Assembly: GCA_021464415.1 (NCBI GenBank)
Contig: CM038469.1
Coordinates: forward strand, 9,774,501-9,838,500
Length of the DNA: 64,000 nucleotides
Source of the DNA: Lonicera japonica
Taxonomy: Eukaryota; Streptophyta; Magnoliopsida; Dipsacales; Caprifoliaceae
Reading direction: 5' to 3'
Positions 5,121-55,737 of the stretch are shown here, one piece after another. Numbering within the stretch: position 1 is the stretch's first letter; every line of letters starts with the position of its first letter. The notes beneath the pieces were generated by a model, which had not been told where the DNA came from, searched no databases, and saw only the letters and a program-made list of their open reading frames with translations. Made by a program: the position numbers and the translations under genes.

Positions 5121-5121
5121 T

Positions 5122-32621: not shown

Positions 32622-32656
32622 GCAACATTTGCGCCAAAAACGCTCCAAAAGAGGCC

Positions 32657-33082: not shown

Positions 33083-33100
33083 GACCCTCTCGTCCCGGGA
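33083..33100 (-). other. Polypurine tract
   Basis: On the minus strand GGGACGAGAGGGTC directly precedes the 3' LTR start TGTGAACACC. Confidence 0.7.

Positions 33101-35061: not shown

Positions 35062-35065
<4 letters not shown>
34276..35065. other. 3' region of the Tat element, no gene seen
   Basis: About 0.8 kb with a recurring TACCCTC(A/T)G(T/A)TTT word (34372, 34476, 34550), T-rich on this strand. No conserved domain in any frame. Confidence 0.5.

Positions 35066-35095
<30 letters not shown>
35066..35095. repeat. T30 homopolymer
   Basis: Thirty consecutive T on the plus strand just before the palindrome array of the mobile-domain gene. The length may be affected by assembly. Confidence 0.9.
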
Positions 35096-35116
35096 CAAAC
35101 TGATCAAAATTGAGGG

Positions 35117-35275
35117 TAGCCGCATGGGGTAACCGCAGGGTGTGCGGTTGGTGGTAGCCGCACGGGGTAGCCGCACGAGGTAGCCGCACGGTTTGACCCC
35201 CCAGCCGTACGGCTGGCAGCCAACCGCACGGTTGGGGGCTAGCCGTACGGTTGGCTAGCCTGCGGCTGGCCCCTA
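35117..35275. repeat. Palindrome array upstream of the mobile-domain gene
   Basis: Two CCGTACGG cores and several CCGCACGG variants in the same AGCC...GGTTGG/GGCTGG setting as the LTR array. Ends 5 bp before the TATA box. Confidence 0.9.
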
Positions 35276-35280
35276 GGATC

Positions 35281-35288
35281 TATAAATA
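35281..35288 (+). promoter_or_regulatory. TATA box of the antisense mobile-domain gene
   Basis: CTATAAATAG begins at 35280, right after the palindrome array and 105 bp before the ATG at 35386, leaving room for a ~70 bp leader. Confidence 0.75.
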
Positions 35289-35385
35289 GTGGCCCGTTCA
35301 AAGCATTTTCGTCACTTCTTCTTGCGATCTTTCTCTCTAGCATATAAATATCTGATTTTTCAAAAACATTTAGTGAGTGTGAGCG

Positions 35386-38300
35386 ATGGCATTTGCGAGA
35401 CTACTTTCGATCTTCGTGTACAGGATGATGGGAGGCCCACCAGAGGGAGGGGAGGCGCCGGAGCTACTCCCGGGGGACGAGGTGGAGTCGATCACTGCGA
35501 TGATGGATGGGCGCCTGATCTGTGCGCCACATCATGACGACTGGGAGGGTGTGGCCTGGGAGGGGCCACTGGGGGCAGACGGATCGCTACAGCGGGCAAT
35601 GTACCGGGACGTGCCCTTGATCTCGCCGGGAGAGGGGCGAGAGTGGCTGTTGATGGAGCCTGCGGCACACGAGATCCGCCGCCGGACTAGGGTATGCTCT
35701 AATATTTAGCATTTCAAATTATGTGATTTTTTTTGAAAAAGATGCCAATGAAGAGATATGCATGAAATGTGGTAGATTTAATAATTACTTGCCATAATAG
35801 ATATATACTCAACATTATTTATTGTTTGAAAAAAGTTTGTTAGTGAGCCTTGTAAAAATTGGTGATGTAACAGAGGATCGGACGTTGCCGTGGCATCACG
35901 CGTGCTGCGCCTGAGCTTCGAGATCAGCTTCCGCCGCTGGTGAGAGCATACTTGAGTGCGACCCCATTCGGACGATTTATCGAGGTGCTGCCAGGCGGAG
36001 AATTCCAGCGATCAGTGAGCCTTCCGACGGTGTTAGGGGAGAGATGGTGGGATACGACGCACACATTCCATTGGAGTTGGGGGGAGATGACGTTGACACC
36101 TGAGGATGTGTTCGTGCTGACAGGGCTGCCTTTCGGGGGGGAGGCTCTGGTGCCTAACCCCCGCGTACGCATTACTCTAGATGGTATGGGAGCGGCACTA
36201 GGATGGAGGCCTAGCAGGATTGTGGCGGATGGGATACCTCACACGGCGATGGTGCAGCATATCGAGGCCGAGAGTGGGAGGTTTGGCGATGGTCCGATGA
36301 CACGCCAGGAGGTGCGGCAGCTATCCCGATGTTTTCTGCTGCTCGTGCTGCATGACTTCTTTTATGCGCGGGGCGGCGACAACCTACGGTTATGGTGGCT
36401 GTCTTATCTGCGGTTCTTCGACCAGTTGTATACTTTTGCCTGGGGAGGATACGTATTGGCGGTGCTGTACGAGGCGATGGACCTGGTGTGCCGTCACATG
36501 GAGCTGAACCACCGCAGGTTGGTCACGCTTTGGGAGGTAAGTAATAATATAAACCCTCACTGTATTTGAAAATAACTCGTGATTTGTTAAAAGAAAGCCG
36601 GTTCTATAATTTTAACAAGTATGATGATTTGTGACAGATGTGGTTTATTGCGCATACCCACCAGGGTATTGGTCAGATCCATCTGCACCCGACTTTCGCA
36701 GATGAGTTCCCGCTTTTTCGACGATACTACAGCGGGAACATAGTTGGGGTGTATCGATATCTGACCCCGGACGTCAGTGCAGGCGACGTTTCTGGGCTAC
36801 AGCTTGACCAGGTATGAAATTATATTAATGAAATTTTAAATTACTTCTGAAAAAGAACAGTTAAGTTATGGTTGGTGTATGTTCAATGTGGCAGGTTCAG
36901 TGGAGCCCATGGCCGGCATACGTGACGCAGCAGTGGGGGTATGCGGATGCATTGGCTGCGGCGCGTTCGAGGCGTTTATTCGTGCATGAGTATGGCGCGG
37001 CGTTCTACCTGGGGGAGCGCGTGGTGCGGCAGCATACTCCTGGGTTGGGATTCCGGGTTCCGGCATGGCCCCCATTGGCGATGAGGCGGCCGGTCATGCT
37101 GACTGCGGAGGAGAGAGCTCTGTTCCTGGGAGGCGTCCCGATGGAGGGTCTGTTGGTGGAGGGGGAGTACGGGACGTTTGCGCATCGGTATCTGAGGAGG
37201 GAGATGAAGGGGGTGCGAGGCAGGGTGATATATGCGAGGTATGCGGCCCTCGGGGGAGATCCGATGTATATCCGGGGGCAGTTGTACATCTCGCAACGGG
37301 TCCCACAGCAGCCCGCACCGGCGCCGAACCGGAGGGCCAAGGGGATTGCGGATTCAGATAATGAGGATCCGCATGGGGAGAGGGACGTGGAGCCGCCGCA
37401 TGTGGAGGAGGAGGATGACGAGGGTTCGGAGGAGGTTCCGTTGGGAGGGGGCAACGATGGGGCGCCCCCAGTAGGGGAGGAGCTGGCTGCTGCGGTTTCG
37501 CCTGGACGAGGTAGGGCGAGTAGGGGCGGGAGGAGTCCGGTCGGAGGGCGGAGTCCCGTGTCGAGGCCGCCTATCTCACCGGCCATGGGGAGGACACCGC
37601 AGTTGTCGTCGGAGGATATACGGCAGATGCTGGAGTCGGCGCAGACACCCGGGGGTCGTGGGTCGATGTCGGGTTCATCACCCGTGTATGGGGCGGGCGA
37701 CATGGATTGGGTTCATCATGTGTCCTTCTCGCCGTTGCTGCGCACGCCTGTCGGGTCGCCAGGTGCCGGGTCGGTGGGATTGAGGCCGTACTCTCTGTCG
37801 ACCCCATCATCAGGTGCGGCCCGTGGGATAGTCTTCCGGGAGCTAGGAGAGAGGGAGGCGCAGTTAGGGGCGGAAGCAGGCATAGGCCAGACTCCGGTGG
37901 GTGAGGATGGCGACAAAGGGAAGGGGAAGGCGGTGGCGCCCGAGTCGGAGACAGGAGAGGACACCGGGGAGGACATACCCCCGGTAGGTGGCGCTGGCGG
38001 AGCTGGTCCGTCACAGGCTCCGGAGGGTGGGGCGTTGGCGTCGTACTCGATCCCGGAGTACCCTCGGGATATCCCTTACTTGGATTTCGGTCTACCCAAG
38101 CAATACCGGATCCCTGACATACCTGAGGGCGATGAGCGGATGGGGGCCTTAGCACACGACTCGAGCGAGGAGGTAAGGTTTCTTTTTAAACAGTTGAGTA
38201 TACGTGTTGAATTATGAATGCTACTGATTGGTAATTTTGGTTTTGGCAGAGAGGTTCGTTCCTTCTTCGCGAGGTGGCTGAGTTACTGAGGAGCTACTTC

Positions 38301-38588
38301 AACATGTACGGATTGCTGACGTTTGCGGCTCCTTTCCCGGTGGAGTACATGGGGCGGTACAGCAGACGCTTGGCGGGCGATACGAATGCTACCTACCATC
38401 CGTCACGTTCGCGGTCCCGATCGGCGGTTCCTTCTCAGTCGGTTCAGCAGTCGAGGCGCACCTCCCGGCTTGCTCCTTCTCACCAGGGCGCAGGTCGCAC
38501 GGTTTCAGAGAGTCCAGCGGAGGGTGCTGGAGAGACAGAAGCGAAGCGCCCGCGGACGATGGATCCTCCCCCTTCTCCTCAGCGTTGA
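35386..38588 (+). CDS. Plant mobile domain (PMD/MAIN-like) protein, five exons, antisense passenger gene
   Basis: Exons 35386-35691, 35874-36536, 36638-36811, 36895-38172 and 38250-38588 join at canonical GT/AG sites. All four introns (182, 101, 83 and 77 bp) are phase 0, and the joined frame is open for 919 codons. The start ATG sits in a good context (GAGCGATGGC). The exon 2 segment ERWWDTTHTFHWSWGEMTLT and the following LTPEDVFVLTGLPFGG are the signature of the plant mobile domain, and the domain continues through exon 3 and the start of exon 4 (WSPWPAY). The C-terminal ~400 residues are Gly/Pro/Ser/Arg-rich, acidic and probably disordered, ending in an Arg/Ser-rich basic tail. PMD proteins occur as nuclear meristem factors and as transposon passengers. 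Role here unknown. It lies antisense to gag-pol, which is why its introns can survive retrotransposition. Base composition is far more GC-rich than its surroundings. Confidence 0.88.
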
Positions 38589-39075
38589 TGGTTCTGACGG
38601 CTCGGCGTTTTGTTTTGCTTGAGAGAAACATTTTAAATTAAGTAGTTAACTTAGGCGTATTTTATTTTTAGAAAAAACTTATTTTAATTTAGTGGTTAAT
38701 TTAAATATGTTTATTTGTTAAGAAAAATGTTGGTTTATCGATGTGTTCGGTTTTAATTTATGAATAAAATATTTATGTTTATTTTGAAAATATGTTTGTG
38801 TGTGATGTGATGTAAATGTTATTTGTGAGTGCAATTGAAAAATGATTACGTGGTGGCGGAATTATTACTTATTTAATTATACAAGAGTTAACGGCACGCG
38901 TTGAAAGAATGTGATCAAGTGAAGTTGCGAAAAATGGTTAAGTACATATGTTGGCAAGTAATTATCAAATCTATATGCATGCTATGATGGATCGTTCTTC
39001 CTGAACAAGGTCTGGCAATATTTGTATCATGATGTATTGTAAAGAAGATTTGAAAAATGGAAGAGTTTAACCAAA
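38589..39075 (+). other. 3' flank of the mobile-domain gene
   Basis: AT-rich 3' UTR and spacer. A possible polyadenylation signal AATAAA lies at 38763-38768, 175 bp after the stop. No other feature recognised. Confidence 0.5.
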
Positions 39076-39076
39076 G

Positions 39077-39186
39077 GGGGAGAGCCAACCGCACGCCCTA
39101 CCCGCACGGGGTAGCCGTACGGTTGGGAGCCAGCCGCACGGTTGGCCAACCAGCCATACGGTTGGGGCCCAACCGTGCGGTTGGCA
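39077..39186. repeat. Palindrome array upstream of the DUF7745-like gene
   Basis: Words AGCCGTACGGTTGG, AGCCGCACGGTTGG, AGCCATACGGTTGG and AACCGTGCGGTTGG: the same unit as the LTR array, with C/T and G/A changes in the core. Ends about 13 bp before the TATA box. Confidence 0.88.
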
Positions 39187-39199
39187 TGTGCAGTTATAC

Positions 39200-39207
39200 T
39201 ATAAATA
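39200..39207 (+). promoter_or_regulatory. TATA box of the DUF7745-like gene
   Basis: CTATAAATAG beginning at 39199, 80 bp upstream of the ATG at 39280. Confidence 0.75.
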
Positions 39208-39279
39208 GAGCGCAAATTTGTCCTTTTTTCCATCATCAAAGTCACTATTCACCATATAGCTTCTTCTTTCTCTATTACC

Positions 39280-40515
39280 ATGTCTACCTTTCATACCCAT
39301 GCTTCTTTCTCCCTTTTGTCTGATTTCGTGTCTATGGCTGAGGCCGACTGTGGTCTCAACTGGGGCGATCTGAGCCACCTTCATCGCTGGTGTTCTCATG
39401 ACATCAACTTTTCTTTTTTGCTTGGTATTGCTGAGTTCTGGGATCCTGAGGACCACTGTTTCCGCATCGGTTTAGACGAGTTGTGTCCGACGATTGAGGA
39501 GTTCACACTACTGATGCGGCAGGATGTTTCATGGCCACTGGCTTCCTTATGAGATGCTAGGAGTCCTCGTGTTATGCTGGCGGAGTTTCTGGGTCTGCGG
39601 GAGAGTGAGTGCCGGCCTATGATAGTTGACGGTCGACTCCATCTGCGTCACTTGGCAGACTTTTTCCTTCATCATGGCGACGACCCGGCTTATTATTCAG
39701 GTCGGACTTCTGCTTGTATGATTTTTGCTTTTTCTCAGATGCTCTTGGTTACCGATGATGCTATTCTGGTAGACCCTCTGATTATCCGAGTTGTATCTGA
39801 GGCTAGACGCGGCCATTTGGTGACTCCCATCTTACTGGCGGAGACACTGAATGGTTTGGATGCCGTGGTTCAGTCTCGACTTAGTCATTTTCGAGGTAGC
39901 CCATATCTACTGTACATGTGGGTTACTGAGAGGTTTCGGTATCTGGAGACTCGGCTTCCCTGGGATTCTCGGCACTTCTTCCAGCGTCCTGATTACGCCC
40001 AGATTCATCGTCTGTCATCATATGATTGGGCTGTTCGGTTTTCTGAGTCCTCTTCTTCGATTCGTTGGGAGGTTCCATGGTGGCGTATGAGGACCATGAT
40101 CATGAGTATGGGTGGGCAGAACTATCTTCGGTTTCGTGGTTTGAGAGAGACATCATTCTACATCCCCGGACGGCTGACGAGGCAGTTCGGTGTTCCCCTG
40201 AGTATACCCTTCCCGCTGAGAGACTTTTCTTCGATCGCTCTTCCTATTACCCCGAGACTAGAGACGACCCTGCGAGGTCTTTGGTCTACCCGCTTTGTTC
40301 GGCGATTTCATGGAGGAGAGGTTGGCATCACCCAGGTGACCCGTTCTGATATCGTGCTGCATATTTGGCGTCGTGTTCGACAGACCATTGAGCATGAGCC
40401 TATGATGATGAGGTGGTTTCGGTTTGCAGATTCACCGGTGACTGATGAGACAGTGCTTGCTTCGTATCAGACCATGGATCGAGAGAGGATCTTGTATTCT
40501 GCTGATGACGGTTAG
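39280..40515 (+). pseudogene. DUF7745-like protein, antisense passenger gene with one premature stop
   Basis: A single exon frame of 411 codons from ATG 39280 to the stop at 40513-40515, interrupted only by TGA at 39550-39552 with the frame unchanged on both sides. N-terminal ...FWDPEDHCFRIGLDELCPTI followed by EEFTLLM resembles the conserved block (fWdp..hcFrfg..eltPTieE) of the plant DUF7745 family, which is common in gypsy elements. The middle and C-terminal parts are Arg/Leu-rich with no known catalytic motif. A CGA to TGA change at a methylatable CpG would explain the stop. It converges with pol, ending 279 bp from the pol stop. Function unknown. The family call rests on motif memory. 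Confidence 0.72.
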
Positions 40516-40720
40516 GTTAGGTTTGGTAGGCAGCTTCTTTATGAAAGCTGTCTGGGATTAGGTAGGTAAAATATATAGGGAAAATATGTAAGAACTGATG
40601 TAGGTTATCTTGTACGAAAGAACTTTTTGATGTATGGAAAATCTCTTTCTGCCTTTCTTCTTGTGTCCAAATGAATGAATATTATTACAATGAATAGACC
40701 GGGCCTGATATTCAGGTTGC

Positions 40721-40776
40721 CTACGTTTCCCCGTTTTTTTTTTTTTTTTTTTTTTTCGGGGCTCAGGTCTTCGTAG
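40721..40776. other. Hairpin with T23 loop between convergent genes
   Basis: CTACG...CCCCG, a run of 23 T, then CGGGG...CGTAG: nested inverted repeats placed between the 3' ends of the DUF7745-like gene and pol. It could shape the 3' ends of both transcripts. Confidence 0.6.
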
Positions 40777-40793
40777 TTCATGTATACAATTTT

Positions 40794-42006
40794 TTACTGA
40801 TAGTATTTCTTCAATCGGTCGAGGTTGACTGGTAAGTTTAACTCTTGGCCATCAATGTCGGTAAGGAGAACGGCACCCCCGGATAGGATTTTAGTAACAA
40901 TATAAGGGCCTGTCCACTTTGGCGAGAATTTTCCTCTTGGGTCTCGGGCTGGTTCACGAATTTCTTTGAGGACTAAGTCTCCAAGTATGATGCTTCTGTC
41001 TCGGATTTTTTATTAAAGGCTTTGGCAACACGTTTTTGATACCCTTGATGTTGATATGAAGCCCTCAATCGGTTTTCATCAATCATTGCCAACTCTTCAT
41101 ACCGAGCCTTTACCCAATCATTCTCAGTGACTTGATTTTCCAGGATAACCCGTAAAGAAGGTATTTCCGTTTCCACTGGTAAAACCGCTTCCATGCCATA
41201 TGTAAGTGAAAAAGGCGTTGATCCCGTAGAAACTCTCTCAGTAGTTCGATATCCCCAAAGTGCATACGGGAGCTTTTCGGGCCAATCTCTACCGGATTTA
41301 ACCATTTTGCTAATGATATTCTTCAAATTCTTATTAGCAGCTTCTACGGCCCCATTAGTTTGTGGGCGGTATGGTGAGGATTTGTGGCGTTTGATTCCAT
41401 ATTCTTCCATGATTTCGTTGGCTGTGCCTTCAAAATGCGTACCATTATCGGATATTATCTCATGCGGTACCCCGTATCGGCATATGATGTTGTGTCGGAT
41501 GAATCGTGCCACCTTTCGGGCATTCAAATCCTTGTAAGACTCGGCCTCAACCCATTTGGTGAAATAGTCGATAGCTACTAGGATGTATTCATGCCCATTA
41601 CTTCCTTTTGGCGAGATCTTACCGATTATGTCAATACCCCAGATGGAAAACGGCCAAGGAGATGTCATAGGGTATAATTCTTTTGGGCCTTGACGTATAT
41701 TTGACATTGGTGACACCCTTTGACGTATTCAAAACAATCTTTTTGCATTGTTAACCAGTAATACCCTTGACGAACTATCTTTCGTGCCAATGTATGACCG
41801 CTCATATGTGGGCCACACTCTCCACTGTGGATTTGTTCCATCATTGCTCGGGACTTTTCTTCATCGAGGCATTGAAGGTGTATACCGTCATCATTTCTTC
41901 GGTATAGTTTTCCGGCACAAATGATAAACCGGGATGCTAGGCGGCGAAGCGTGACCCGAGTGGTTTTGTCAGCATGTGATGGGTATTCATTATGCTTGAG
42001 TAATTG
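40794..42006 (-). pseudogene. Tat integrase (frameshifted)
   Basis: The H2C2 zinc motif lies at about 41840-41720 (HSGECGPHMSGH ... KGCHQC). After a frameshift the catalytic core is open at 41716-40973, with D in FSIWGIDIIG, D in IISDNGTHFEG and E in TNGAVEAANK. The C-terminal part (DPRGKFSPKWTGPY) is in another frame after a missing base near 41015 and ends at 40794. No chromodomain, as expected for Tat. Would join the cDNA to host DNA. Confidence 0.88.
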
Positions 42007-43050
42007 CTAGATATCGTAGTACCAAACCTTCTGATCGATCTTATTTCCACGTTCAACATCGAGTGATAGGCAAAATACCGGATTTATTCGCCTTTGAATC
42101 TGAATCTGAATTTCTTCTTTCTCCCCCGGAATTTCAATCATCGAGGCCAGAGTAGCTAAGGCATCAGCAAAATTGTTCTGTGTTCTCGGGATGTAGAAGA
42201 ATTCAATGCACTCAAATTTCTCAGAAGTTTCTTCGAGTTGGGTTAAGAAGGGCACAAGTTTTTCCTCTTTGATCTTCCATTTTTTCAAGATCTGATGAAT
42301 AATGAGAGCGGAATCCCCAAACACTTGAATTTTACGAACCCCTTTCTGCAAAGCAATTTCTAACCCAACAATACAAGCTTCGTATTCCGCGATATTGTTG
42401 GTACAGGGAAATTCTAATCGAAAAGACATAGGTGCATGTATCTGATCTGGCGAAATTAACAGGATCCCAATTCCGTTCCCATTCCGATTACAAGCCCCAT
42501 CAAAATACATTTTCCATTCATCGTCTTTGGTAATCTCCATGATACTTTCATCGGGAAATTCGAAGTCCTGTAGCTCGGCATCAATGATTGGATTGCCTGC
42601 TAAGTGATCTGCTATGACTTGCCCTTTGACGGCTTTTTGAGTGACATAAGAAATGTCGAACTCTGAAAGCAGGAACATCCATTTAGCCATTCGATTAGTC
42701 AACATCGGCTTTTCGAACAAGTACCGTAAGGGATCTAGACGAGAGATCAAGATCACGGAAAATACCAACATATAATGTCGCAACTTCTGGGTAGCCCAAA
42801 CTAACGCAGCGCATGATTTCTCTAAAGCTGTATAATTTTGTTCTCCCGGAGAAAGCTTTTTGCTGAGGTAATATATTGCCTGCTCAGTTCTTGTTTTCAA
42901 CAAATGCTGTGCCAACATTGCTCCAACTGAGGAGTCATTGACCGACATGTATAGTATCAATGGAATGCCTACTTGGGGAGGTGCTAAGACTGGCGGATTA
43001 GACAAATATTGCTTGATCTTATCGAACGCTTCCTGGCATTGCTCATTCCA
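42007..43050 (-). pseudogene. Tat pol: RT connection and two RNase H-like domains
   Basis: Same frame as the RT after the TAG. An RT-associated RNase H (YLSKKLSPGEQNYTALEKSC, near 42880) is followed by a second, archaeal-type RNase H (MYFDGACNRNGNGIG near 42500, AEYEA near 42380, VFGDSALII near 42320, ADALA near 42150) with all acidic residues present. A duplicated or replaced RNase H is characteristic of the Tat lineage. Ends at TAG 42007-42009, where CAG is the expected codon. Confidence 0.85.
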
Positions 43051-45999
43051 CTACCCATCTGAACTCTTTTGGAGTAGCTTAAAAATTGGTTCACATGTTC
43101 GAGTCAATTGTGAAATAAATCTGCTGATTAACTGTAACCTCCCGAGGAAACCCCGAATTTCCCTTTCAGTTTTAGGAACTGGCATTTCTTGAATAGCCTT
43201 AACCTTTGCCGGATCAACCTCGATTCCCTTTCTGCTGACTATATACCCCAGCATCTTGCCTTTGGTGACCCCGAATACACATTTCTGAGGATTCAAACGC
43301 ATCTGGAATTGCATAAGCCGTTCAAAGAAGATACGAAGAGTTTCCACATGACTTGTCCGGTCTAATGATTTGATGATCATGTCGTCGACATACACTTCTA
43401 CTTCCTTATGAATCAGATCATGAAATAGAGTAGTTGCGGCTCTCTGATATGTGGCCCCGGCATTTTTCAATCCAAATGGCATGACGGTGTAACAATAAGT
43501 ACCCCATGGTGTGATAAAGGCTGTCTTTTCCTGATGATCAGGATGCATTTTGATCTGATTATACCCGGCAAATCCATCGACGAATGATTTTAAAGCATGA
43601 TTTGCAGTGTTGTCGACAATGAGATCAATGTTTGGCAGTGGAAAATCATCTTTTGGACATGCAGCATTTAAATTGCGATAATCAACACAAACCCGTACTT
43701 TGCCATTGGCTTTTGGTACCGGCACTATGTTGGCCAACCAAGTAGGGTATTCAACAACCCGTATGAATCCGACATCCAATTGCTTTGTGACTTCTTCTTT
43801 AACTTTGAGCGACCATTCAGGTACTAGTTTTCTTAACTTTTGCTTGACAGGTTTGCATTCGGGTTTAGTGTGTATTTCATGCATCACAATAGTGGCATCT
43901 AAACCCGGCATATCAGCATATGACCAAGCGAAAACATTAACAAACTCTTTCAACAAATTTTCTAAGTCTGTTTTTTCATCATGGCTTAATTCGGCCCCAA
44001 TTTTTATTTCTTTTATATCATCGGTTGTTCCCAGATTTATTGTGACCGTGTCTCCTTCAATGGGTTGTATTCGCTGCTCATTATTCAAATTTTCATTCAT
44101 AATTTCAACATCACAAGAATCAAAGTAAGGGAAAAGATTGGTAATTTTATTGATAGAAACATCACTTTGTACAGATAGCATACATTCTAAATTTCGTACA
44201 TTTCTATCAATATTTCTCTCTCTCTGCTTCTTTTTTCCTTCGATAGGGCGTATAAGATGCACAGGATCCCCAAGGTAATCTTCCTCAATTGCCATGACCT
44301 CAAACATATTACCCAGCATATCTTCCTCTTCTAGTGACTCGACGGGTGGCCGGGTAATCTTTAACCGAGATGAGAAGGTGTGAGTAAATCCTTCACTGAT
44401 ATATAAGTTTTCTTCAAAGAAAATTTCTAATCCCGGTTGTCTTTTCCCTTCTTCATTTACCCATGGTTCCTGAAACCCGCAGTAAGGAAAGTCTTCACCC
44501 TCTTTTATAAACCATCCGTTTAATGAACTATCGGCAAATACGGCACTTTTCATTCGGCTAACATCTCCCACATATCCCAACCCAGCAAGAGGACTCGGTT
44601 GTTGGAATGGTTCGATCATTTGGGCAATGCCGGCTTGATATTTTCCCAAACCAATCCCCGGTAAAAATTCCATTTTCCTCATCATCTTTATCACTTGCGT
44701 ATTCATGGTCGACATATCATCAGGGGGCAGATAATTCACAATCTGCGTGGTAAGAGTTTGCACCTTTGGCTCATACGAAAATCCCCCGAGTTGGACATCT
44801 TGGCTTCCGATTCCCAATACTAGCGAGTTTTTTGGGACTATTGCCCTTTCAGGATCTCCCTTGATGATGATGATATCCCCGTTGAAGGGTATTTTCATTT
44901 TTTGATGAAGGGAAGAAGGCAGTGCGCCAACCTCATGCAACCAAACTCGTCCTAATAACAAATTAAAGCTCGAAGGGATATCTATGACTTGAAACTCAGT
45001 GGTGAATGAAGCCGGTCCTATTTGCATACTCAGCATGACGGAACCTAATACTTCCCGCTTGGTATTGTCGTATGCTCGCACTGTGACTGGTGATTCTTCC
45101 ATGGCAGTTAAATCAATACCCAAACGAACAGCAGTTTTCAACGGGCATACGTTAATTGTAGAACCGTTATCCACAAGCACGTACGGTATAGACATTCCAT
45201 AAGCAACAACGGTGATATGTAGAGCTTGGTTATGATCCCGACCCAGTGGTGATAAATCTTCATCAGAAAACCCAAGAACTTGTTTTTGTACCCCCATTGA
45301 AGCGATTATCGCTGTTAACTCATTTGGGGTGGCTTCAAGAGGAACAACCGATTCATCTAACATTCTCATTAGTGCCATACGATGTGGCTTGGATGCTACC
45401 AGAAGTCCCCAAATTGAAATTTGGGCTTGTGTTTTCTTTAACTGTTCAACAACACGCCCTTCTTCCGGGTTTTTTGCATGTTCGTTGGGAAGAGCGACAT
45501 CAATAGGTTGCTTGGTATTTGGCGGTTGGTACACTCTCCCAGAACGGGTCAATTGTTGGACCCATGTCGCGACTGGATCACTTGCCCCTTTAGGTGTTTC
45601 AACTGGAGTTGAAGGTGGCCCCTCATTGACTTGCGAAACTGTATTCCAGTCAAAGGCGATCATGTTTATCTGTGAGCAATTCTTTCTTGAATGGGTGTTC
45701 TTTTTTATTGTTTTTCCTTGGTTATACCCGAGCCCTTGTCGCCTCGGGTTGCCTTTAAACTGTGGAAAGTGGGCGATCCCTTGATTCTGTTTACCGAGCC
45801 CAAAACCTGGTATGAACTGCATTTGTTTCATCCAGCCCATAACTTTTGGGCTAACTATCTCTTGTGACTGCATGGTGCATGTTTCATCAACGGATAACCC
45901 CAACAATGTTTCATCCTTGATTTCTTGAACGGATTTCTGGGACCTTGGTGGAGTATATTGAATGACTGTGACGAAGGCTTTAGACAGCTGAATTTCCAA
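43051..45999 (-). CDS. Tat pol: G-patch-like motifs, aspartic protease, reverse transcriptase
   Basis: A continuous frame of 982 codons. Two glycine-rich G-patch-like segments: one near residues 55-93 (IPGFGLGKQNQGIA) and one near 445-480 (LPGIGLGKYQAGIA), each with a trailing GLGY. Protease site VDNGSTINV near residue 277 (DNGS in place of DSG/DTG). RT near residues 700-930, with KVRVCVDYRNLNAACPKDDF, MPFGLKNAGATYQR and the catalytic YVDDMI. Matures proteins and copies the RNA. Ends at TAG 43051-43053, beyond which the same frame continues as the connection domain and RNase H. Confidence 0.9.
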   Translation of the reverse strand: MEIQLSKAFVTVIQYTPPRSQKSVQEIKDETLLGLSVDETCTMQSQEIVSPKVMGWMKQMQFIPGFGLGKQNQGIAHFPQFKGNPRRQGLGYNQGKTIKKNTHSRKNCSQINMIAFDWNTVSQVNEGPPSTPVETPKGASDPVATWVQQLTRSGRVYQPPNTKQPIDVALPNEHAKNPEEGRVVEQLKKTQAQISIWGLLVASKPHRMALMRMLDESVVPLEATPNELTAIIASMGVQKQVLGFSDEDLSPLGRDHNQALHITVVAYGMSIPYVLVDNGSTINVCPLKTAVRLGIDLTAMEESPVTVRAYDNTKREVLGSVMLSMQIGPASFTTEFQVIDIPSSFNLLLGRVWLHEVGALPSSLHQKMKIPFNGDIIIIKGDPERAIVPKNSLVLGIGSQDVQLGGFSYEPKVQTLTTQIVNYLPPDDMSTMNTQVIKMMRKMEFLPGIGLGKYQAGIAQMIEPFQQPSPLAGLGYVGDVSRMKSAVFADSSLNGWFIKEGEDFPYCGFQEPWVNEEGKRQPGLEIFFEENLYISEGFTHTFSSRLKITRPPVESLEEEDMLGNMFEVMAIEEDYLGDPVHLIRPIEGKKKQRERNIDRNVRNLECMLSVQSDVSINKITNLFPYFDSCDVEIMNENLNNEQRIQPIEGDTVTINLGTTDDIKEIKIGAELSHDEKTDLENLLKEFVNVFAWSYADMPGLDATIVMHEIHTKPECKPVKQKLRKLVPEWSLKVKEEVTKQLDVGFIRVVEYPTWLANIVPVPKANGKVRVCVDYRNLNAACPKDDFPLPNIDLIVDNTANHALKSFVDGFAGYNQIKMHPDHQEKTAFITPWGTYCYTVMPFGLKNAGATYQRAATTLFHDLIHKEVEVYVDDMIIKSLDRTSHVETLRIFFERLMQFQMRLNPQKCVFGVTKGKMLGYIVSRKGIEVDPAKVKAIQEMPVPKTEREIRGFLGRLQLISRFISQLTRTCEPIFKLLQKSSDG

Positions 46000-47751
46000 A
46001 CTTCAACATTTTCCGCATTCCCGGCGGGTTTAATCAAGAGTACAGGATCTGGTAAATCTGAATCCTCCTCGATAGCATTGATCCGATGATTAGGAAGGGG
46101 ATTCCTTGCAACATTCGGGGCTGACGGGTCAGGAATCCTTTTGCTATCAATTAAGTTCTGGATAGCATGCCGCAGGGCCATACAACTATCGGTAGTGTGT
46201 CCGAAACCTTGGTGATATTCGCAATGTTCATTCATGTTCCAATGAGGTGGTATCTGTTGTGGTAATGGTCTCGGATTCATGGGATACATAATCCCGGCTT
46301 CTTTCAGTTGTTCGAAAACCTTTCCCAACGGTCCCGGTAATTGCGAAAAATGTCTATCTCGTGAGCGATTCTGATCAAATGTCCTGAGATTATTGTTGCT
46401 GTTGTTACGATATCCCAAATCCCCAATGTTTTTTTACAGAGTTTTGACCAAAGGGGTTGCCGGAATACCCCCGACCGTAGGACCCAGAAGACGTAACTTG
46501 ATTGATGGCAGACGTGGAAGTCTTCTTGTACTGTGAAGCGGATTTTTTGATTTCAGCCTGCTTGGCTAATTCCTCCTCAATTTCGTTGCCTACGTGGAGT
46601 AGGGCTTTGAACCTGCCAAAGAACTGGTGTCCCATTTGGGTCCGAATATCTGGTTTCAAATTCTTCACAATCATTCCGAGTTGTTCCTCTTCATCTAGGC
46701 GCTCCACCATTTGGGCGGCCAGTTCCCTCCATCTTGTTACAAACTCACTAATACTCTCATTCTCCTTCTGCTTAGCCATCTCTAGATGTTTCCTTGTAAC
46801 TTTAAGTTCCTCATTAGTTTTGTACTGTGACACAAACTCTTGGACAATGGCGGACCATGATCTAACACAATGCTTTTCAAGGTTCAAAAACCAACTCTGG
46901 GCCGGTCCTGCCAAAGTGAGGTGAAAGGAATTGGCTAATTCAGCCTCACCGAGATCATAAATTCTCATTGAACGGACATAAGATTTCAGATGGAGTTCTG
47001 GTGGTGTAGTGCCTGTAAATTTTGGGATGGAGGGCATCTTAAAACCCACGGGATAACGAGCCTCAGGGTATAAGTTGTAGCTTTGCATCTGGGTCAAATC
47101 GTTCGAACTCTCAGCTACTTTTTGGGTAAGTTCTTTCAACTGCTCCTTAAGCTCAGACAAGTCTCTATCCCCCCGGTGAGTTTCTATTGGCGTGGGGCCC
47201 TCCCCTTGGATACTCATGGGCCTTCTCATTGGGTCATAATACGGATCGTGGTATGGTTCATGGATCGGTTGCATCTGTGGAGGGGCTTGATTGGTCAGGT
47301 CCTGTTGTAACCAATTGCCGACCGGATCAGGCATGGGTTTGGGTTGGTTCAACTGTTCATATGGCGGTGGTACTTCGGTATGAACTGAGAGTGGCGGTGG
47401 TGGTGGTAGAATAACCGGAGTTTCTCTTGGTGATTCTGTCATGCGCCCTTTAGCCAACTCGTCCAACTTGGCACGAGTATTTTTATTGTCACTTAATAAC
47501 ATGGTCATGCTTTGGTTCAAGTTCATCAACATTCGATACATATCTTCGGGATTCGGTAACGGAGCATTCATGTTTCCGCTTGAACTGGCTAGGTTTGGAT
47601 CAACATTCAAAGATGGAGTATGATGTAGCGGCTGACCCCCAACAGTATTATTCTGCGGCATTCCCGGGTTTGGGTAAAAAGGACCGGGCGGCGGATCCGC
47701 TGCATTGTTCAATTGGTTGTTCACATTCCGGTTCGGGGTATTCTGATCCAT
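45855..47751 (-). pseudogene. Tat gag: capsid and zinc knuckle
   Basis: Pro/Asn-rich N-terminus (47751-47050), then the retrotransposon gag domain at about 47040-46550 (GEAELANSFHLTLAGPAQSW, then SISEFVTRWRELAAQM). After the +1 shift near 46432 the second frame (to 45855) holds the knuckle CEYHQGFGHTTDSC at about 46230-46185, a CX2H variant usual in this lineage. Gag packages the RNA. The frameshift would uncouple the knuckle from the capsid. Confidence 0.88.
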
Positions 47752-48766
47752 GTTTTCAGAGGAATCTGGTCTGACTAGTCTCCCGGTGCTATCTCTTCCA
47801 GCCCACACAGAGGCCAAGATGAATATCTGCTGTTGCGGAAAAAAGGACAAATTCGATCGCGCGCATTCCCCCGGAAAATAACAACAATATATCATTTAGA
47901 AATTGCCGGACCTTATCCAGAAATACATCGATCGGGACGAAAATAAACACACAAAAGTTTTTCTTTAGGTGAGATTGAAAACAGACCAACGGTGACAATT
48001 TGAGAGTCCCGTATAGTGGTAGGGTAGGAATAGAATTCCATGGGTTCCCTGACCGTCTATAGTTTTGGGAAATCATTTTGAAAAGAGTTTTTCGAAAAAT
48101 CATTTAAAAATATGGGAAGATCTCTCCTCATGAGTTGCTTTGTTCATGGAATCAGGGCTTCCGCTCACTAGATTCTCACGACTGTTGGTCATTAAAAAAC
48201 CATGCAGAAAATCTTTGTGTCCTAAGCTGACTCCCCTATATGCAAACGTGGCTGAATAAGGTAAGGTTTAAGGCTCCCTCCTATTTGGCAGGCCTTACGA
48301 TATACCTCAAGAGCACAGGTACGTGTAAGGACCTTTTGATATACATCCCGGGTACGTGAGTGTTCTCGTCACTCGATATATCTCGGTAAGTACTTGGCCA
48401 AGGAGAGTGGTCCCAGGCGCTTTCGGCTAGTGCAGACCCGCAAGTCCGCGGCCTAGTCACGACTCTGGTCCCGAGGTTAATAGGGTAAATTCACACTCGC
48501 AAAAATGCATGATAAGATGTGAGTGCGTGCAAAATAACAATATGGCAGTTCATTATTGATCAATGCTTTAGGGTTTGTTATGATAATTTACACAATTTTA
48601 ATTATGAAAAAGATTTTCCTCACATAATTAGCAAATAAAGGTATCAGGGTATCCACCTAGATTGCTTCTATGTTATCCTAGGACTAAGGCTTGCAAGACC
48701 TATATCTAATAAATAATAGTAATTAAATACATGATCCATTATATCAGAGCTTAGTTCTCTACTCAC
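47752..48766 (-). other. 5' leader of the Tat element
   Basis: About 1 kb between PBS and gag. The minus frame 47789-48103 is open but shows no domain. Probably packaging and leader sequence. Confidence 0.5.
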
Positions 48767-48784
48767 TCCCCAGCAGAGTCGCCA
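48767..48784 (-). other. Primer-binding site of the Tat element
   Basis: Minus-strand TGGCGACTCTGCTGGGGA, one base after the LTR end. This form is described for Ogre/Tat elements, where the primer is reported to be a tRNA-Arg. The tRNA was not checked here. Confidence 0.85.
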
Positions 48785-49602
48785 CTGTGAGAATCCGGAC
48801 CCGCGACCCGAGTTAGGAGAAAAGAGAGTCCTCGTTCTCGGTTTTATTTTGAAAAAAACGTGTTTTGTAGAGTCGCCAGTTTGTTTTACGAGAAAACAAA
48901 CAAAAGATCGTACGAAGGATAATTCGAAAACGAACTATCTCTCATACGTTTGAAACCAGAGATTCATTTTGAAAATTGACTTTGCTAGGGTTCGGGAACT
49001 ACGTTACGAATTGGGAAGGTGTTAGGCACCCAATTCGCCCTTTCGGTCTCTTAATGGATCATGTATTTAATTCCTATTTTAGATATCTTGCAAGTAGTTT
49101 GAATAGTTTTCAGAATAGTCCTTTCCGGATAAATTTAGTTTTAAAACAATATTTTTGAAATCAGACTCGAGCTTTGCGAGCGCCTACGTATTCATTCGTA
49201 GAATGAAATCAGAGTCTCGTAGTTCCTTTCTTTTGGAAACTGTTTTTGTATTTTATTTGTTTTGAAAACGTGTCAAAACAGGTTTTAGATTTCTTGTAAA
49301 ACTTAGAAAGGATTTGTTTTGAAAGAAATGAACTTCTTTGCAAGTTATCTAATTTCTGTATTGAAATTGAAATTAAATGTAGTACTGAAATTAAGGATTT
49401 GGTAGAAAGTTATACCTGCTGCGCTTGAAGAAGATAGGAGGACTTTGCCTTGATTTTCTTCTCTCTCTAGAGCTTTCTCTCTCTAAAGCTTTCTCTCACA
49501 GAATTTCTCTAAAAATGATTTTCTAGAGACTTTGACAAAGCTCCTACTTACCCAAAAATACTATTCAATGTTGATGATCCCAAAATGGGATCCCAAGGGT
49601 CC

Positions 49603-49610
49603 TATTTATA
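49603..49610 (-). promoter_or_regulatory. TATA box of the 5' LTR
   Basis: Minus-strand CTATAAATAG. The palindrome array 49646-49891 lies just upstream, so this is the element's own promoter. Confidence 0.8.
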
Positions 49611-49645
49611 GCAACATTTGCGCCAAAAACGCTCCAAAAGAGGCC

Positions 49646-49891
49646 AACCGCAGGGGTAGCCGCATGGGGTGCGGCTGGTGCGTGCGACAGGGTGTGCCAG
49701 CCGTACGGCTGGCAGGTAGCCGTACGGTTGGGCGTGCGGCTAGGTGGTGCGGTTAGGAGGTGCCAACCGTACGGTTGGCAGGTAGCCGTACGGTGGGGCG
49801 TGCGGCTAGGGGGTGCGGCTAGGAGGTACCAACCGTACGGTTGGCAGGTAGCCGTACGGTTGGGCGTGCGACAGGGGGGTGCGGCTGGCTC
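49646..49891. repeat. CCGTACGG palindrome array in the 5' LTR
   Basis: Same six-core array as in the other LTR, with one G/T difference in a spacer. Confidence 0.93.
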
Positions 49892-50114
49892 ATAAAAAAA
49901 TCCCCGTCCTAGTAAGCGAAGAGGCAACAAGGGTTATCTTAGACTCCCAACGCGTCCAAAATTGGAGTCTTTCCTATCATTCTTTCTACATGTATGATGA
50001 TTCATGATTAAATGCAGGATGCTTAAAGAAATTCAGTATTCGCACGAGAGTCGTGGATTGGGGTGTTCACAGTATGCTTTAACTACATACACTACACCAG
50101 CTGGAGTCTTGGGC

Positions 50115-50975
50115 GACATACCCTATTGGGTATGTCTCCTAAAACACATCTTAGGAGACATACATTTCGTATGTCTCCTAAGTGAGTCATTTAGGAGACA
50201 TACATTTCGTGTGTCGCTTAAGTACGTCCTTAGGTGACATATATACTACGTATGTCTCCTATGTACATACCTTAGGCCACATACAATTACGAATGTCTCC
50301 TCATAGTTTCACTTAAGAGACATACATTTCGTGTGTCGCCTAAGAACGTACTTAGGCGACATATATAATACGTATGTCTCCTATGTAAGGCCACATACAA
50401 TTACGAATGTCTCCTCATAGTTTCACTTAGGAGACATACATTTCGTGTGTCGCCTAAGAACGTACTTAGGCGACATATATACTACGTATGTCTCCCATGT
50501 ACATACCTTAGGCCACATACAATTATGAATGTCTCCTCATAGTTTCACTTAGGAGACATACATTTAGTATGTTGCCTAATTACTTACTTAGGCGACATAT
50601 ATACTCCCTACGTCTCCTAAGTACTTATTTTATGAGACATACACAATTAGTATGTCGCCTAAAAGTGTTTAAAAAAATATGAATTTTTCGGGAAAAAAAA
50701 GGAGGCAAAAAATAAAAACTCTTAAGCGACATATATATTCCGTATGTCTCCGAAGTACATATCTTAAGAGACATACAAAATTAGTATGTCGCCTAATAGT
50801 TTTTCAAAAAATTTGAATTTTCCACGAAAAAAAAAGAGGCAAAAAATTTTGTCCGCGAAAAAAAGGAGGCAAAAAATTAAGACTCTTAGGCGACATCAAT
50901 ATTTATATATGTCGCCTAAGAGGTAATCTTAGGAGACATACATAATAAGTGTGTCGCCTAAGTGATAACTATAAA
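50115..50975. repeat. Left subterminal palindromic repeats of the CACTA element
   Basis: Dozens of CTTAG(G/A)(A/C)GACATA(C/T) units and their reverse complements, alternating in orientation every 20-45 bp. Two flavours, GGAGACAT and GGCGACAT, are interspersed. Such repeats bind the TnpA-type protein in En/Spm elements. Confidence 0.93.
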
Positions 50976-51257
50976 TTGGGGGAAAATCCCCATTTTATTC
51001 AATCCCTAAATTTTTTCTAACTCTCTATCTCGTTCTTCTCTCTCTTGCTATGTACTTTTTCTTTTTCTTTTTTTTTTAAAAATTTCATAAAAATAAGCAA
51101 AAGATGGAGAACATCTCACCAAGGCACTCATCGTTTTTTTTCCAAATTTTCCTAAGAATTAGTATTGTTTTCAATTATTTTCCAACTTTTTAAGTTTTTA
51201 TCAAAACAGACCCAAAAGGAACATCATCGTCACCATTTTTAATGATTTATTAATTAC

Positions 51258-52189
51258 CTTCATCATCTCCCAAGAGGAATTGCTGCTCAGAGAAGAATCA
51301 AGAACTGCCTTGTAGGCAGGAGTGGACATGGCAGTTGCAGCTAATACTCCAATAAGTTCACCAGCAGCAAATAAAGTATGGGTCATAATTCTAGTCTTTA
51401 CACCATACTCGAATTGAATGACTGAATGGCTCCACACATTCCTAACTGTGGCATCATAACAAACAACATTTCGAAGAATAGCCATCAAGTTCTTAAACAA
51501 GGTTCCTGGTTCAGTCAATCCTCTAGAGGAACGGACCATCACTTCTCTACTACTAATTGAGTGGACTATCTCTTGGTACAGGTCCAACCCATGAAATAGA
51601 CAGCTCCTCACAAAACTGAATTCCTCACTGTGGTAGGTATTGCTAAAATGATACTTCCTGTGAAAAAGAGAAGTCATTTCTCCAACCAATGTGCTTGAAT
51701 AGAGTTTCCCCTTATCTAACATTTGAACACCCAAGAACCCTATTTGCTGAAACACCTTATTAATGGTCGAGTCGCTCTTAGAATCGATTATATCACTCAT
51801 TGAAGATGACTTCAGAATGAAATTTGTATCGGGCATTTTAACAAGTTTTAGGTGATTCTCCAGCCGCAACTCCTCCAACTCATTGTAGGAGGACCTTGTA
51901 TGATGCAGCGGGGGGAAATATCTTGAATATTCTCTTGGAGTTCCTTGGGGATAAAAAAATCTTCCAAACCAACACTAAAACCTTAAGAATATAAATTCTC
52001 CATAAGCATCGGTTGTACAGAATTGATGAAGCTCAGAACCTCATTGGGCCCCTTCCCAAAGAAAATAGAAATAACTATGTCACTGATAATCGACGGGATT
52101 ACATCTCGACTAAAATTGATTTTCAGCACTTGACTATTGGATATCGAGTGTCGCTCACCGTAATAGTCAAGGCCCAATGGTAGATAAGT
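51258..52189 (-). pseudogene. Captured exon of an RNA polymerase IV/V largest subunit gene (NRPD1/NRPE1-like)
   Basis: The minus-strand reading gives LGLDYYGERHSIS, FFGKGPNEVLSF, GFSVGLEDFFIPKE, ELRLENHLKLVKMP, REVMVRSSRGLTEPGTLFKN, VIQFEYGVKT, GVLAATAMSTPAYKAVLDSS and SSWEMMK in order. That is the conserved C-terminal core of the Pol IV/Pol V largest subunit, where VRSSRGLTEPGTLFKN and AATAMS.PAYKAVLDSS are diagnostic compared with RPB1. These polymerases produce and use the RNAs that direct DNA methylation. A TAA at 51983-51985 (GAA expected) and a frameshift near 51905 break it. The fragment is bounded by a TTACAG acceptor at 52190 and a GTAATT donor at 51257, so it is one exon plus flanking intron taken from genomic DNA. 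Whether it is from NRPD1 or NRPE1 I cannot settle by eye. Confidence 0.85.
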
Positions 52190-52199
52190 CTGTAATAGT

Positions 52200-52904
52200 T
52201 GTAAATATCTATATTATAAGGGAAGGAAATGTCACGTCATCCAATTATCTAATAAATGACTTAGATTCGTTCTAAAAAATACAAATAAAATGTTAGCCTT
52301 TGGATGTGAATTTTTTTCCTAAGAACCTCACATCACCACACTAATGGGCAAGATTTATTTACAAACAACACAAAAAATTTAAACCCTTAGATGTACTTTT
52401 AGGATATCAAATTAAAAAATTCAACATTTTTTTCTCTCTCTTATATTCTACCAATCTACTCTCTCCCCCACTTTTGTTTCTTATTAATTTTTTAAAACAA
52501 TTAAAAAACATTAACTTTAAATACAAAAACTAAAAATTATTAAAATATTCATATTTAAAATTTATTAATCCATACTTATAAAATAAAATCCATACCTATT
52601 GTAACCCACTTTTCTCTCTTTAAACATATTTTTTTTCATATACTTACATTCAAATACAATTCTTCCTTTAGTTTAAAAATATAAAAAAGATATTGGTTTT
52701 TATTTAATCTTTTACAAACTTAATTCAAATCTAGGGTGACTACTAATGGTGCCATCTATTTATAATAAAAATTTTATAAATTTATAACGTCATTGTAACA
52801 ATAATGAGATATTAATTTTTGTATGTATTGGTGAATAATTATTAACCCATCCCGACCTTAATGAATTTGATTTAGACTAATGTTTATGTTGTTTTGTTTT
52901 GTAG
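52200..52904. other. AT-rich spacer inside the CACTA element
   Basis: Low-complexity A/T-rich sequence. May include intron of the captured polymerase gene on its left side and intron of the Ptta gene on its right, where a TTTTGTAG acceptor ends it. Confidence 0.5.
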
Positions 52905-54755
52905 GAGAGTTATATCATTGATCCCAATGATGATAACCTCTTTGAGTGGATCGAAACGAAGACTGCCGGGCGATTTCGACAATGGAAGCATGACTGCAAG
53001 CAAGAGTGGGATAAAGACAAGGGCGGTCCCGTTCCGATCGAGTTCGCCCACCGCCCTGAACAGTGGGAGTCCCTCTGCGCCCACTTCAACTCTTACTCCA
53101 ATAAGGTATTTTCTTATGTTTTATTGAATTGAATTAAACTTACAATTATTAGGATATGATTTTAACTTATATGTGTACCAAGTATTACCCGTGTAGGGGA
53201 CATCCTAAAATTGATTTGATGTTTAATGACTTGACATCCTAAAAATATATCTAAGGGTTGAAATTGTTTTTATTAATCATAAACAAATCTGAACCATTGA
53301 TTAAGTTGAATAATATGATAAAAAAAAAGTTGACAAAATATGTCTTATAATATAGATGTATATGTATCTTACAGGAAAAGGGGGCGAAAATGTCTGAGGC
53401 CCGGAAGTCTGAGAAGAAGAAGGACCACACCGCTGGGAAGGTTTCGTTCGCTCACTTGGCGAAGAAGCAAAGGACTGATGGCGAAGTGGCCCCTCACTTA
53501 GAAGCCTATATGGACGCCTATTCAGCCACCGATCCCAAGGGAACGGTAAAAACTTTTAAACTTTACTTTTTTGCTATTATTTAGTTATGCTTACTTTATC
53601 TATATATGTACACTTTACTTTCGTATGTATCGATTTAGAAGAAAAAAGATAATGTACCAGTGCTAGCTTGTATATCTCAATTTGTATACATACTTGTACA
53701 CTTGGTCGGTCGGTACGTGGTTATAATCGACCAATATAAATTACACCAAAACAGTAAAAACACATAGCAAAATAGTAGTGCTAACTTGGAATTGAGAATG
53801 GGTTTTTTACTTATTTATTTATTTAAACGAGCCTATTACTTTCTAGCATAATTGTAGTGCTAACTAGGAATTGAGAATGGAAGAATTAGGAGGTTTGATT
53901 TCTCTTTCTTTCTCGTCCGATTGTGGGTTGTACTCGAGTTGGGCTTGCAAATTAATTAGACGGGTAAAGCTTTCTAATTCTTCTAGTTATGTTTGCAATT
54001 TCTTAATATTTAAACCCTTAGTTTGATGAACTTGTAATATTTTTGTTAGATCTGAACTAAATCAAAATAAAAATGTGTAGATCTAATATAGATCTAGCCC
54101 ATTAGATGCATTGAAGCTTAGTTTGGTTTGTTTACTTTGTTTTAGTTCATTTGTGAATTATAAATGTTTTCTTATATTGCAATAAACTGTGAAGAGATGT
54201 TAACTGTCATTTTCATGAGGTTTATTTATGAATTTTGTTTGATGTCGAGTTCAATTATTTCGATTTAGATTATAATTTCAATTTTAGCACTGGTTTTTTA
54301 ACTTGTACATTTTACTTATATATTATTGTTATTTGCAGGCGAGAGTGAGAGCCGCTACCGATAAGGCCGTGGCGAAGATAATGGCCGATCGGCCCGCCAC
54401 CGAGGAAGGATCCGAGTGTTCGATCCAGCTCCCTCTTGACGAACAGATTCGTATCATAGAGAGTGAGATCAGTTCTTCGAGAGGAATTAGGATCCGAGGC
54501 TTTGGGAGCTCTGTCGTCAATGAGCCGAAGAAGACAGGTCCCATGGAGCCGGTGCAGATAAACCTCCAGATGGTGGCACGGATCGCGCAGCAAGATGCAA
54601 GGATCGCGGAGCTTGAGGCGCGACAGAAAGTAGAGCTTGAGGCGATGGAAGCGCGACATAAAGCAAACGATGAGGCGCGACAGAAAGCAAGCAATGAGGC
54701 GATGGAAGCGCGAGTACGGGATCTAGTATCGTCGATGAAAGCAAGAGAGGTTTAG
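52905..54755 (+). CDS. Ptta/En/Spm transposase-associated protein, last three exons
   Basis: Exons 52905-53105, 53375-53545 and 54339-54755 join at GT/AG sites, all phase 0, giving 194 open codons ending in TAG. The first has FEWIETKTAGRFRQWKHDCK and WESLCAHFNSYSNK, the second a Lys-rich SEARKSEKKKDHTAGK stretch, and the last DEQIRIIESEISSS then IRGFGSSV followed by a heptad-like Ala/Glu/Arg coiled coil. This order matches the plant transposase (Ptta/En/Spm, Transposase_24) family that accompanies CACTA elements. 5' exons with the start codon are not found. It probably encodes a DNA-binding accessory protein rather than the nuclease. Confidence 0.75.
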
Positions 54756-55114
54756 TGATAGACTTGTTTATATATAGATTATTTTGCATCTTTATATATA
54801 GACTTCGTTCTTTTCTCTCTATTACTAGACTTATGGTATTTTTATTCTATACTTGAATTTTGGCTTGTAATTACTCTTTGTAGATTTCAATTTTGGCTTG
54901 TAAATATTAGACTTTGTACATTTTAATTTTGGCCTCATTTTGTGTGATTTAATTGTGTGTGAATGAATTGGTATCAAATTTATATTACAGGTTGATTTGT
55001 AGAAATTTTGTTGTGTGTGTGAATGAATTGGTATCAAATTTATAATGCAGGTTGATTTGTAGAAAAGTGTAGGTGTGGCTATACAATAATACAGCCTGCT
55101 ATGAAGCAGGTCTG

Positions 55115-55722
55115 GAACATCTTAGGAGACATACAAATTAAAGTATGTCTCCTAAGTGGTGGTCAATACTTTTAATCAAACAGACTTATGCGACATACAT
55201 ACATTTGTATGTCTCTTAAGATCACCACTTAAGCGACATACATACATTTATATATCTCCTAAGATCACCACTTAAGCAACATACAAATATCATATGTTGC
55301 TTAAGTTGTAGACTTAAGAGACATAAGCAATATAATATGTCTCCTAAATGTACAACTTAGGAGACATACTCTATTTCTTATGTCTCTTAAGTCTAACACT
55401 TAAGCGACATACAAATAAAGTATGTCGCTTAAGAGGTTGACTTAGGAAACAAAGTAAATAAAGTATGTCTCCTAAGTCTTACACTTAAGAGACATACTCT
55501 ATTGCTTATGTCTCTTAAGTCAATCACTTAGGAGACATACTATATTGCTTATGTCGCCTAAGTGAACCACTTAAGCGACATACTTTATTTATATGTCGCT
55601 TAAGATCTTAGGCCACACCACTTACCCGACACTACTTAAGCGACATACCCTATGTCGCCTAAGGCTTAGGCGACATACATCAGCTCTTAGGAGACATAAT
55701 TTGTATGTCTCCTAAGTGTCTA
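55115..55722. repeat. Right subterminal palindromic repeats of the CACTA element
   Basis: Same GACATA(C/A)/(G/T)TATGTC units as the left array, but AAGCGACAT and AAGAGACAT variants dominate, giving a slightly different end. Confidence 0.93.
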
Positions 55723-55737
55723 TTTCAGGTAGTGATA

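Follow-up and report, generated by a model that had tools for sequence, protein, structure and literature searches.

The 64,000-nucleotide stretch of Lonicera japonica DNA analysed here (contig CM038469.1, positions 9,774,501 to 9,838,500; hereafter the window) contains a CACTA transposon that carries a piece of NRPE1, the gene for the largest subunit of RNA polymerase V (Pol V). Going by the comparisons below, NRPE1 DNA was probably captured in antisense orientation, multiplied by the CACTA family and carried mostly as a passenger. An original prediction, made from the letters of the window alone, had placed a piece of the Pol IV or Pol V largest subunit, bounded by splice sites, inside a CACTA element with an ATA duplication, and had proposed that its antisense or hairpin transcripts might counteract silencing.

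The NRPE1 piece and its donor

Compared with solved structures, positions 51201-51974 (minus strand) matched Pol V NRPE1 with an E-value of 7e-71, against 2.8e-9 for Pol IV NRPD1 and 1.4e-5 for Pol II RPB1, and positions 51983-52213 (minus strand) matched Pol V NRPE1 only. The captured fragment is NRPE1; Pol IV and Pol II were rejected as sources on their much weaker matches. The predicted capture of a silencing-polymerase piece by a CACTA element is confirmed, its source being NRPE1 and not NRPD1. The element's ends at 50090 and 55734 and the flanking ATA were likewise confirmed. The main features are as follows.

50090..55734, plus strand: CACTA element of 5645 bp, termini CACTACACCAG... to ...CAGGTAGTG, read directly
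50087..50089, no strand: left copy of the ATA target-site duplication, read directly
55735..55737, no strand: right copy of the ATA target-site duplication, read directly
50130..50962, no strand: 5' subterminal repeats of the CTTAGGAGACATAC/GTATGTCTCCTAAG type
55119..55716, no strand: subterminal repeats at the 3' end, like those at the 5' end
51258..52204, minus strand: captured, broken stretch of an NRPE1 exon covering residues 544-864 (from homology and donor alignment)
51078..51257, minus strand: captured start of the intron after NRPE1 residue 864, about 180 bp (one block with the exon against the donor, locus L018)

CACTA termini with a 3-bp target-site duplication and repeated subterminal motifs at both ends are traits of the CACTA superfamily, and the element has both.

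The donor (L018) lies in the same genome. It is an intact NRPE1 with the neighbouring exons in order and residues 278-866 in one exon, over which it is 98.8% identical to NRPE1 of Lonicera macranthoides, and CACTA 5' repeats are absent upstream of NRPE1 there. The first 798 nt of this long exon gave a full-length match at L018 only (40 of 74 candidates scored), the remaining 39 rows being short pieces. The captured block corresponds to oriented donor bases 4233-5374, i.e. exon residues 544-864 and about 180 bp of intron, and three copies (L010, L015 and L025) each start at donor base 4233, a common capture point. Because exon and intron came in one block, we conclude that the capture was of DNA; an origin from spliced RNA was rejected, as intron DNA is included in the fragment. 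Host coding DNA lying between CACTA ends, with the intact gene elsewhere in the genome, is a trait of Pack-CACTA elements.

The donor alignment also settles the borders. The exon/intron junction at 51257/51258 is a genuine splice site, as predicted. The predicted acceptor at 52189 was rejected, since this position is coding sequence within the uninterrupted donor exon (residues 278-866), and the homology does not stop there but extends to 52204. The exon piece is damaged by an in-frame TAA at 51983-51985, deletions of 12 bp and 3 bp and one 1-bp frameshift; neither the intact frame nor the constraint of a functional NRPE1 copy is found in it. Its best protein match is P0001 of L. macranthoides (91%). 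Separately, 84 bp of the captured intron (51109-51192) also match elsewhere in the donor's NRPE1 locus, at 82% (L018, oriented 8094-8175).

Copies in the genome and in a second species

In the 886-Mb genome, a search with the fragment returned 41 match rows at 40 places (40 of 281 first-look candidates scored), and a 28-mer pattern allowing up to three mismatches found 58 places, with none for its reversed control. Taken together, these searches give 64 places, counting the window but not the donor, and 88 once a subtype starting near residue 516 is added; 15 of the 64 are on small contigs and may be second haplotypes. This recurrence is far from chance. Many members of the family carry the NRPE1 piece, the opposite of the absence from other copies that had been named beforehand as refuting.

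The window element also holds exons of a TNPA-like gene, with borders set from splice consensus rather than RNA.

52905..53105, plus strand: TNPA-like exon with the ESYIIDPNDD block, splice-consensus borders
53375..53545, plus strand: next exon, splice-consensus borders
54339..54755, plus strand: last exon, splice-consensus borders

Pfam comparison of single exons was uninformative. The TNPA-like protein has six relatives with E-values up to 1e-3, all from L. macranthoides.

Twenty loci were fetched, chosen by hand and not at random (rows 2-12 of the fragment search and nine others). In 18 of them, the fragment is preceded by at least 100 bp of CACTA 5' repeats in the same orientation, which reach the terminal bases in 16. 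The two without such repeats are the donor and L019, where the fragment is truncated at its upstream end. A TNPA-like gene follows downstream on the strand opposite to NRPE1 sense in 15 of the 20, and no locus has another arrangement. The gene was not seen in the remaining five (the donor, L015, L023, L024 and L027).

Where the terminus is exact (15 loci), it is flanked by 11 different triplets, and shared flanks divide these loci into 12 separate insertion sites. Both CACTA ends were found in three elements only: the window element (ATA), L009 (ATA) and L010+L029 (TTC); in the other loci, the fetched stretch contained no matching end. L009 arose by segmental duplication of the window locus or the reverse; its element of 5705 bp has identical ends and is likewise flanked by ATA. 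L010+L029 is a complete element of 8571 bp, flanked by TTC, in which the fragment is followed by TNPA-like exons including N-terminal ones (MPPIRTS...) that were not found in the window; between its fragment and its first TNPA-like exon there is no frame of at least 90 codons. A separate 92-bp NRPE1 piece (residues 461-491) occurs at about ten other places. Two of these, L032 and L033, have a TNPA-like exon at a distance of about 1 kb; at L033, the single locus checked for orientation, the piece is antisense to that exon.

In the L. macranthoides gene model P0165, the first 21 residues read as antisense NRPE1 and are followed by the TNPA-like last exon. At its start, 17 of 20 codons are compatible with the window fragment and 16 with L. 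macranthoides NRPE1, against at most 12 in 20,000 shuffles, and L025 and L026 encode exactly the same 21 residues. Since P0165 joins antisense NRPE1 to the TNPA-like gene, the family is older than one genome. Besides the intact NRPE1 (P0043), ten L. macranthoides proteins hold NRPE1 pieces. In two of them, P0001 and P0023, as in the window fragment, a valine is missing and the changes D793N, G800A and P832L are present, at sites that are 97-100% conserved. In a tree, these three sequences form one clade (98/94), and the six tested copies group together (88/76).

Some other gene models were noted in passing. P0001 (LguiB_009544) fuses its NRPE1 fragment to a PF05368 (NmrA-type) stretch, P0042 of Heracleum sosnowskyi is an NRPE1 model that repeats itself, and P0005 and P0020 of Cichorium intybus are short NRPE1 models.

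Decay, subtypes and constraint

Copies of the fragment carry stops or frameshifts. The window copy is identical to L. macranthoides NRPE1 at 273 of 315 residues, and by ortholog frequency 34 of the 42 differences are derived in the fragment, at sites of average variability (mean entropy 1.02, against 0.95 for random sites). Eleven of 94 highly conserved sites are changed in the fragment, compared with three in L. macranthoides NRPE1 and a median of zero (maximum five) in 117 orthologs. Scored by one measure, over the sites that differ from the ortholog consensus, the fragment reaches 1.47 and P0001 1.32, against 1.74 for L. macranthoides NRPE1 and 1.53-2.03 for the 117 orthologs.

The copies fall into groups A (window, L009-L017, L019, L020), B (L022-L024, L027) and C (L025, L026, L028); L021 begins further 5'. 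Groups A and C have a common intron-side border, and the majority of their copies have P832L and S856N, at positions invariant in orthologs; the window copy has P832L and lacks S856N. Within group A, the ratio of nonsynonymous to synonymous substitution rates (dN/dS) was 0.53-1.20 (43 of 45 pairs with dS above 0; 10 of 12 rows, L019 and L020 being left out). The exon is also hardly better kept than the captured intron. Across nine group A rows, identity to the donor was 91.6-93.0% for the exon and 90.5-92.9% for the intron, the exon being higher in seven, and in all three group C rows the exon was the less well kept (L012, L013 and L019, which have missing ends, were left out). Rows L019, L021, L022-L024 and L027 of the alignment include unrelated ends that lower their identity figures. 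Protein constraint on the copies is weak or absent.

Several observations weigh against a single capture carried as a passenger by one CACTA family. L012 and L013 share a 1-kb flank, as do L025, L026 and L028, indicating that each set copies one insertion with its surroundings, and hence that places overcount insertions. Four copies (L009, L010, L011 and L020) have stops but no frameshifting indel relative to the donor. Lower dN/dS was found outside group A: 0.28-0.38 between the donor and A, 0.26-0.30 between the donor and C, 0.30-0.36 within C (three pairs), 0.45-0.79 between the donor and B and 0.50-0.75 within B (six pairs). Part of this is due to silent changes on the donor branch, as 10 of the 12 sites separating the donor from all three groups are silent, but some early constraint on the fragment is possible. 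The spliced product of the TNPA-like gene matched PF03004 at E 6.8e-6 (26.7 bits) and, in a second match, at E 1.7e-5 (25.4 bits), both under the Pfam cut-off of 28.7, and no PF02992 (TNPD) transposase was found among the subset of frames scanned with Pfam. Finally, both borders of group B lie further in, and group B adjoins the donor (91/88) in a trimmed tree built without L019 and L021, so a second capture is possible for this group. P733H, common to groups A and B, counts against it. One large antisense capture, eroded differently, would account for all subtypes and for the 92-bp piece; several captures instead of one are possible.

Passenger or anti-silencing cargo

On the passenger reading, the capture took place in an ancestor of today's Lonicera species: a contiguous NRPE1 stretch (the end of the long exon and the start of the next intron) entered the 5' part of a CACTA element as DNA, on the strand opposite to the TNPA-like gene. 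The element's transposition multiplied it and erosion split the copies into subtypes, the window holding one copy. This cargo makes no NRPE1 protein and would mostly be a passenger. Because it sits between the 5' end and the TNPA-like exons, a TNPA-like transcript started near the 5' end would here be antisense to NRPE1, and could feed small RNAs that match it. A putative promoter lies in the corresponding place.

50970..50976, plus strand: TATA-like box (TATAAAT) next to the inner end of the 5' repeats, where the element's transcript may start

TATAAAT stands at the equivalent place in L009, L015, L016 and L017, and L010-type copies have TATATATTAAGG; the stretch holding it is missing from L012, L013 and L025-type copies. 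The comparisons show what the piece is, that it was captured as DNA, that it lies antisense, and that it has multiplied and decayed; an element promoter, its transcription and any RNA effect are what we infer.

Perhaps the cargo is instead a working anti-silencing trait, in which antisense or small RNAs lower NRPE1 and hence Pol V, weaken RNA-directed DNA methylation and aid the persistence of the family. Wherever a TNPA-like gene was seen (15 of the fetched loci), the piece runs antisense to it, as it does in P0165, and it is present at many genomic places. The window copy and 19 other loci each share 49 to 255 perfect 21-nt windows with the donor exon. Together, these 21-mers cover 838 of its 963 nt, with a longest exact match of 94 nt, meaning that small RNAs could reach NRPE1. 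There is also a precedent in miR820, a rice CACTA cargo that resembles an exon and intron of OsDRM2 and lowers OsDRM2, and whose carriers have multiplied in some species (available sections of PMC3459959).

The fold-back precursor typical of miR820 was not found here. None of the 20 fetched loci has an inverted second copy, and no opposite-strand pair within 50 kb exists among the 64 places. In the window element, we folded 180-nt windows over 50991-52910 and computed z-scores for the eight most stable: one reached -2.54 (52011-52190, plus strand) and the others were above -0.6. A hairpin or microRNA precursor was rejected, as the -2.54 fold is branched and no fetched locus has the inverted duplicate. 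Of the two RNA routes predicted, the antisense one is possible from the position of the piece (15 of 20 fetched loci), and the hairpin one is not supported by the fetched copies or by the folding of the window element. As to co-evolution of the cargo with its target, two polarised amino-acid changes of the donor (674 and 675) are not followed by the majority of group A, B or C. A working anti-silencing trait seems unlikely to us. The more specific idea, that the cargo was kept and multiplied because its RNA dampens Pol V by a long-antisense, hairpin-free route parallel to miR820 and OsDRM2, would be equally doubtful. The predicted capture holds, and a neutral passenger, the alternative named alongside it, is the likelier reading, with the exon hardly better kept than the intron.

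Alternatively, the cargo could serve the host or hurt the element, with small interfering RNAs homologous to NRPE1 silencing the family, or with an epigenetic conflict at NRPE1 itself. We think this improbable, as the family multiplied after the capture.

It has also to be asked whether the antisense cargo became a new first coding exon of a TNPA-like gene that lost its N-terminal exons, giving a chimeric protein. The relevant stretch is the following.

51763..51825, plus strand: antisense ATG and 20 more open codons, then GT, matching the first exon of P0165

The P0165 gene model has this structure, the ATG, the 21 open codons and the GT are kept in 18 of 20 copies, and no N-terminal TNPA-like exons turned up in the window. 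A precedent for cargo exons being spliced into chimeras is Tgm-Express1 (PMC1947982). However, the donor gene has the same antisense ATG and open frame, though without the GT, and selection on the mini-exon was rejected as a demonstrated fact for this reason. L010+L029 retains its own N-terminal exons, and the chimeric start is seen in only one of six TNPA-like gene models. We consider this improbable as well.

Lastly, it is very improbable that a Helitron or Mutator-like element (MULE) nested in the CACTA brought the fragment: a Helitron-like motif lies 3 bp from its edge, but the inverted repeats flanking the fragment are weak and AT-rich, what constantly lies beside it is the array of CACTA 5' repeats, and a nested Helitron as main carrier was rejected because the edge motif is missing beside the fragment in L012, L013 and L025-type copies.

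52208..52222, plus strand: TCTATATTATAAGGG, a motif like the 5' terminus of a Helitron, separated from the NRPE1 edge by 3 bp

The TCTATATTATAAGGG/ATCTATATTATAA motif resembles a Helitron 5' end. The 13-mer ATCTATATTATAA occurs three times, at 52207 (plus), 53357 (minus) and 57807 (minus), and two of these point towards each other with a TNPA-like exon between them.

Pieces of host genes in CACTA elements are already known (PMC8978399, PMC8903248 and PMC1947982). A literature search that left out most subscription journals found no published report of NRPE1 as transposon cargo. The nearest known system is the miR820 elements. As far as the available text of PMC3459959 goes, these are also CACTAs present in several copies, with cargo spanning exon and intron of a gene for RNA-directed DNA methylation, and counter-silencing has been proposed for them. 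The cargo here differs in being NRPE1, about 1.1 kb long, in a single antisense copy without fold-back, and is not known to give a small RNA. Pack-CACTA and Pack-TYPE elements of Arabidopsis, rice and maize similarly transpose host coding DNA between CACTA ends (PMC8903248, in part), whereas the Lonicera family keeps a TNPA-like gene and has silencing-gene cargo at dozens of places. In soybean, Tgm-Express1 is a CACTA whose host gene pieces retain splice sites; by the same partial account (PMC1947982), it holds pieces of five unrelated genes, in contrast to one gene in a dispersed family. CACTAs of Chenopodium carry captured pieces towards their 5' end, ahead of the coding part, although the cargo genes described in the available part of PMC8978399 are others (Neprosin, AP2). 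The VANDAL transposons of Arabidopsis, in partial accounts, also counter silencing, through an encoded protein (VANC); no such protein was seen here, where no search was aimed at one.

A piece of a silencing polymerase at dozens of places, antisense to the element's own gene, makes cargo-based counter-silencing directly testable, and the material is identified: the donor gene, another 19 copies and the 21-mers that they share exactly. If the cargo is inert, it would be a clean case of silencing-gene cargo spreading as baggage, and would temper miR820-like readings.

Other features of the window were recorded. An element with long terminal repeats (LTRs) that are 98% alike, containing gag and reverse transcriptase frames, occupies 31814-50072; its insertion, 17 bp to the left of the CACTA, duplicated GTATG, and at the duplicate locus L009 the site is empty. 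An assembly gap of 100 N lies at 27387-27486, and self-comparison revealed tandem repeat arrays at 12241-12642, 15864-16265 and 33587-34267.
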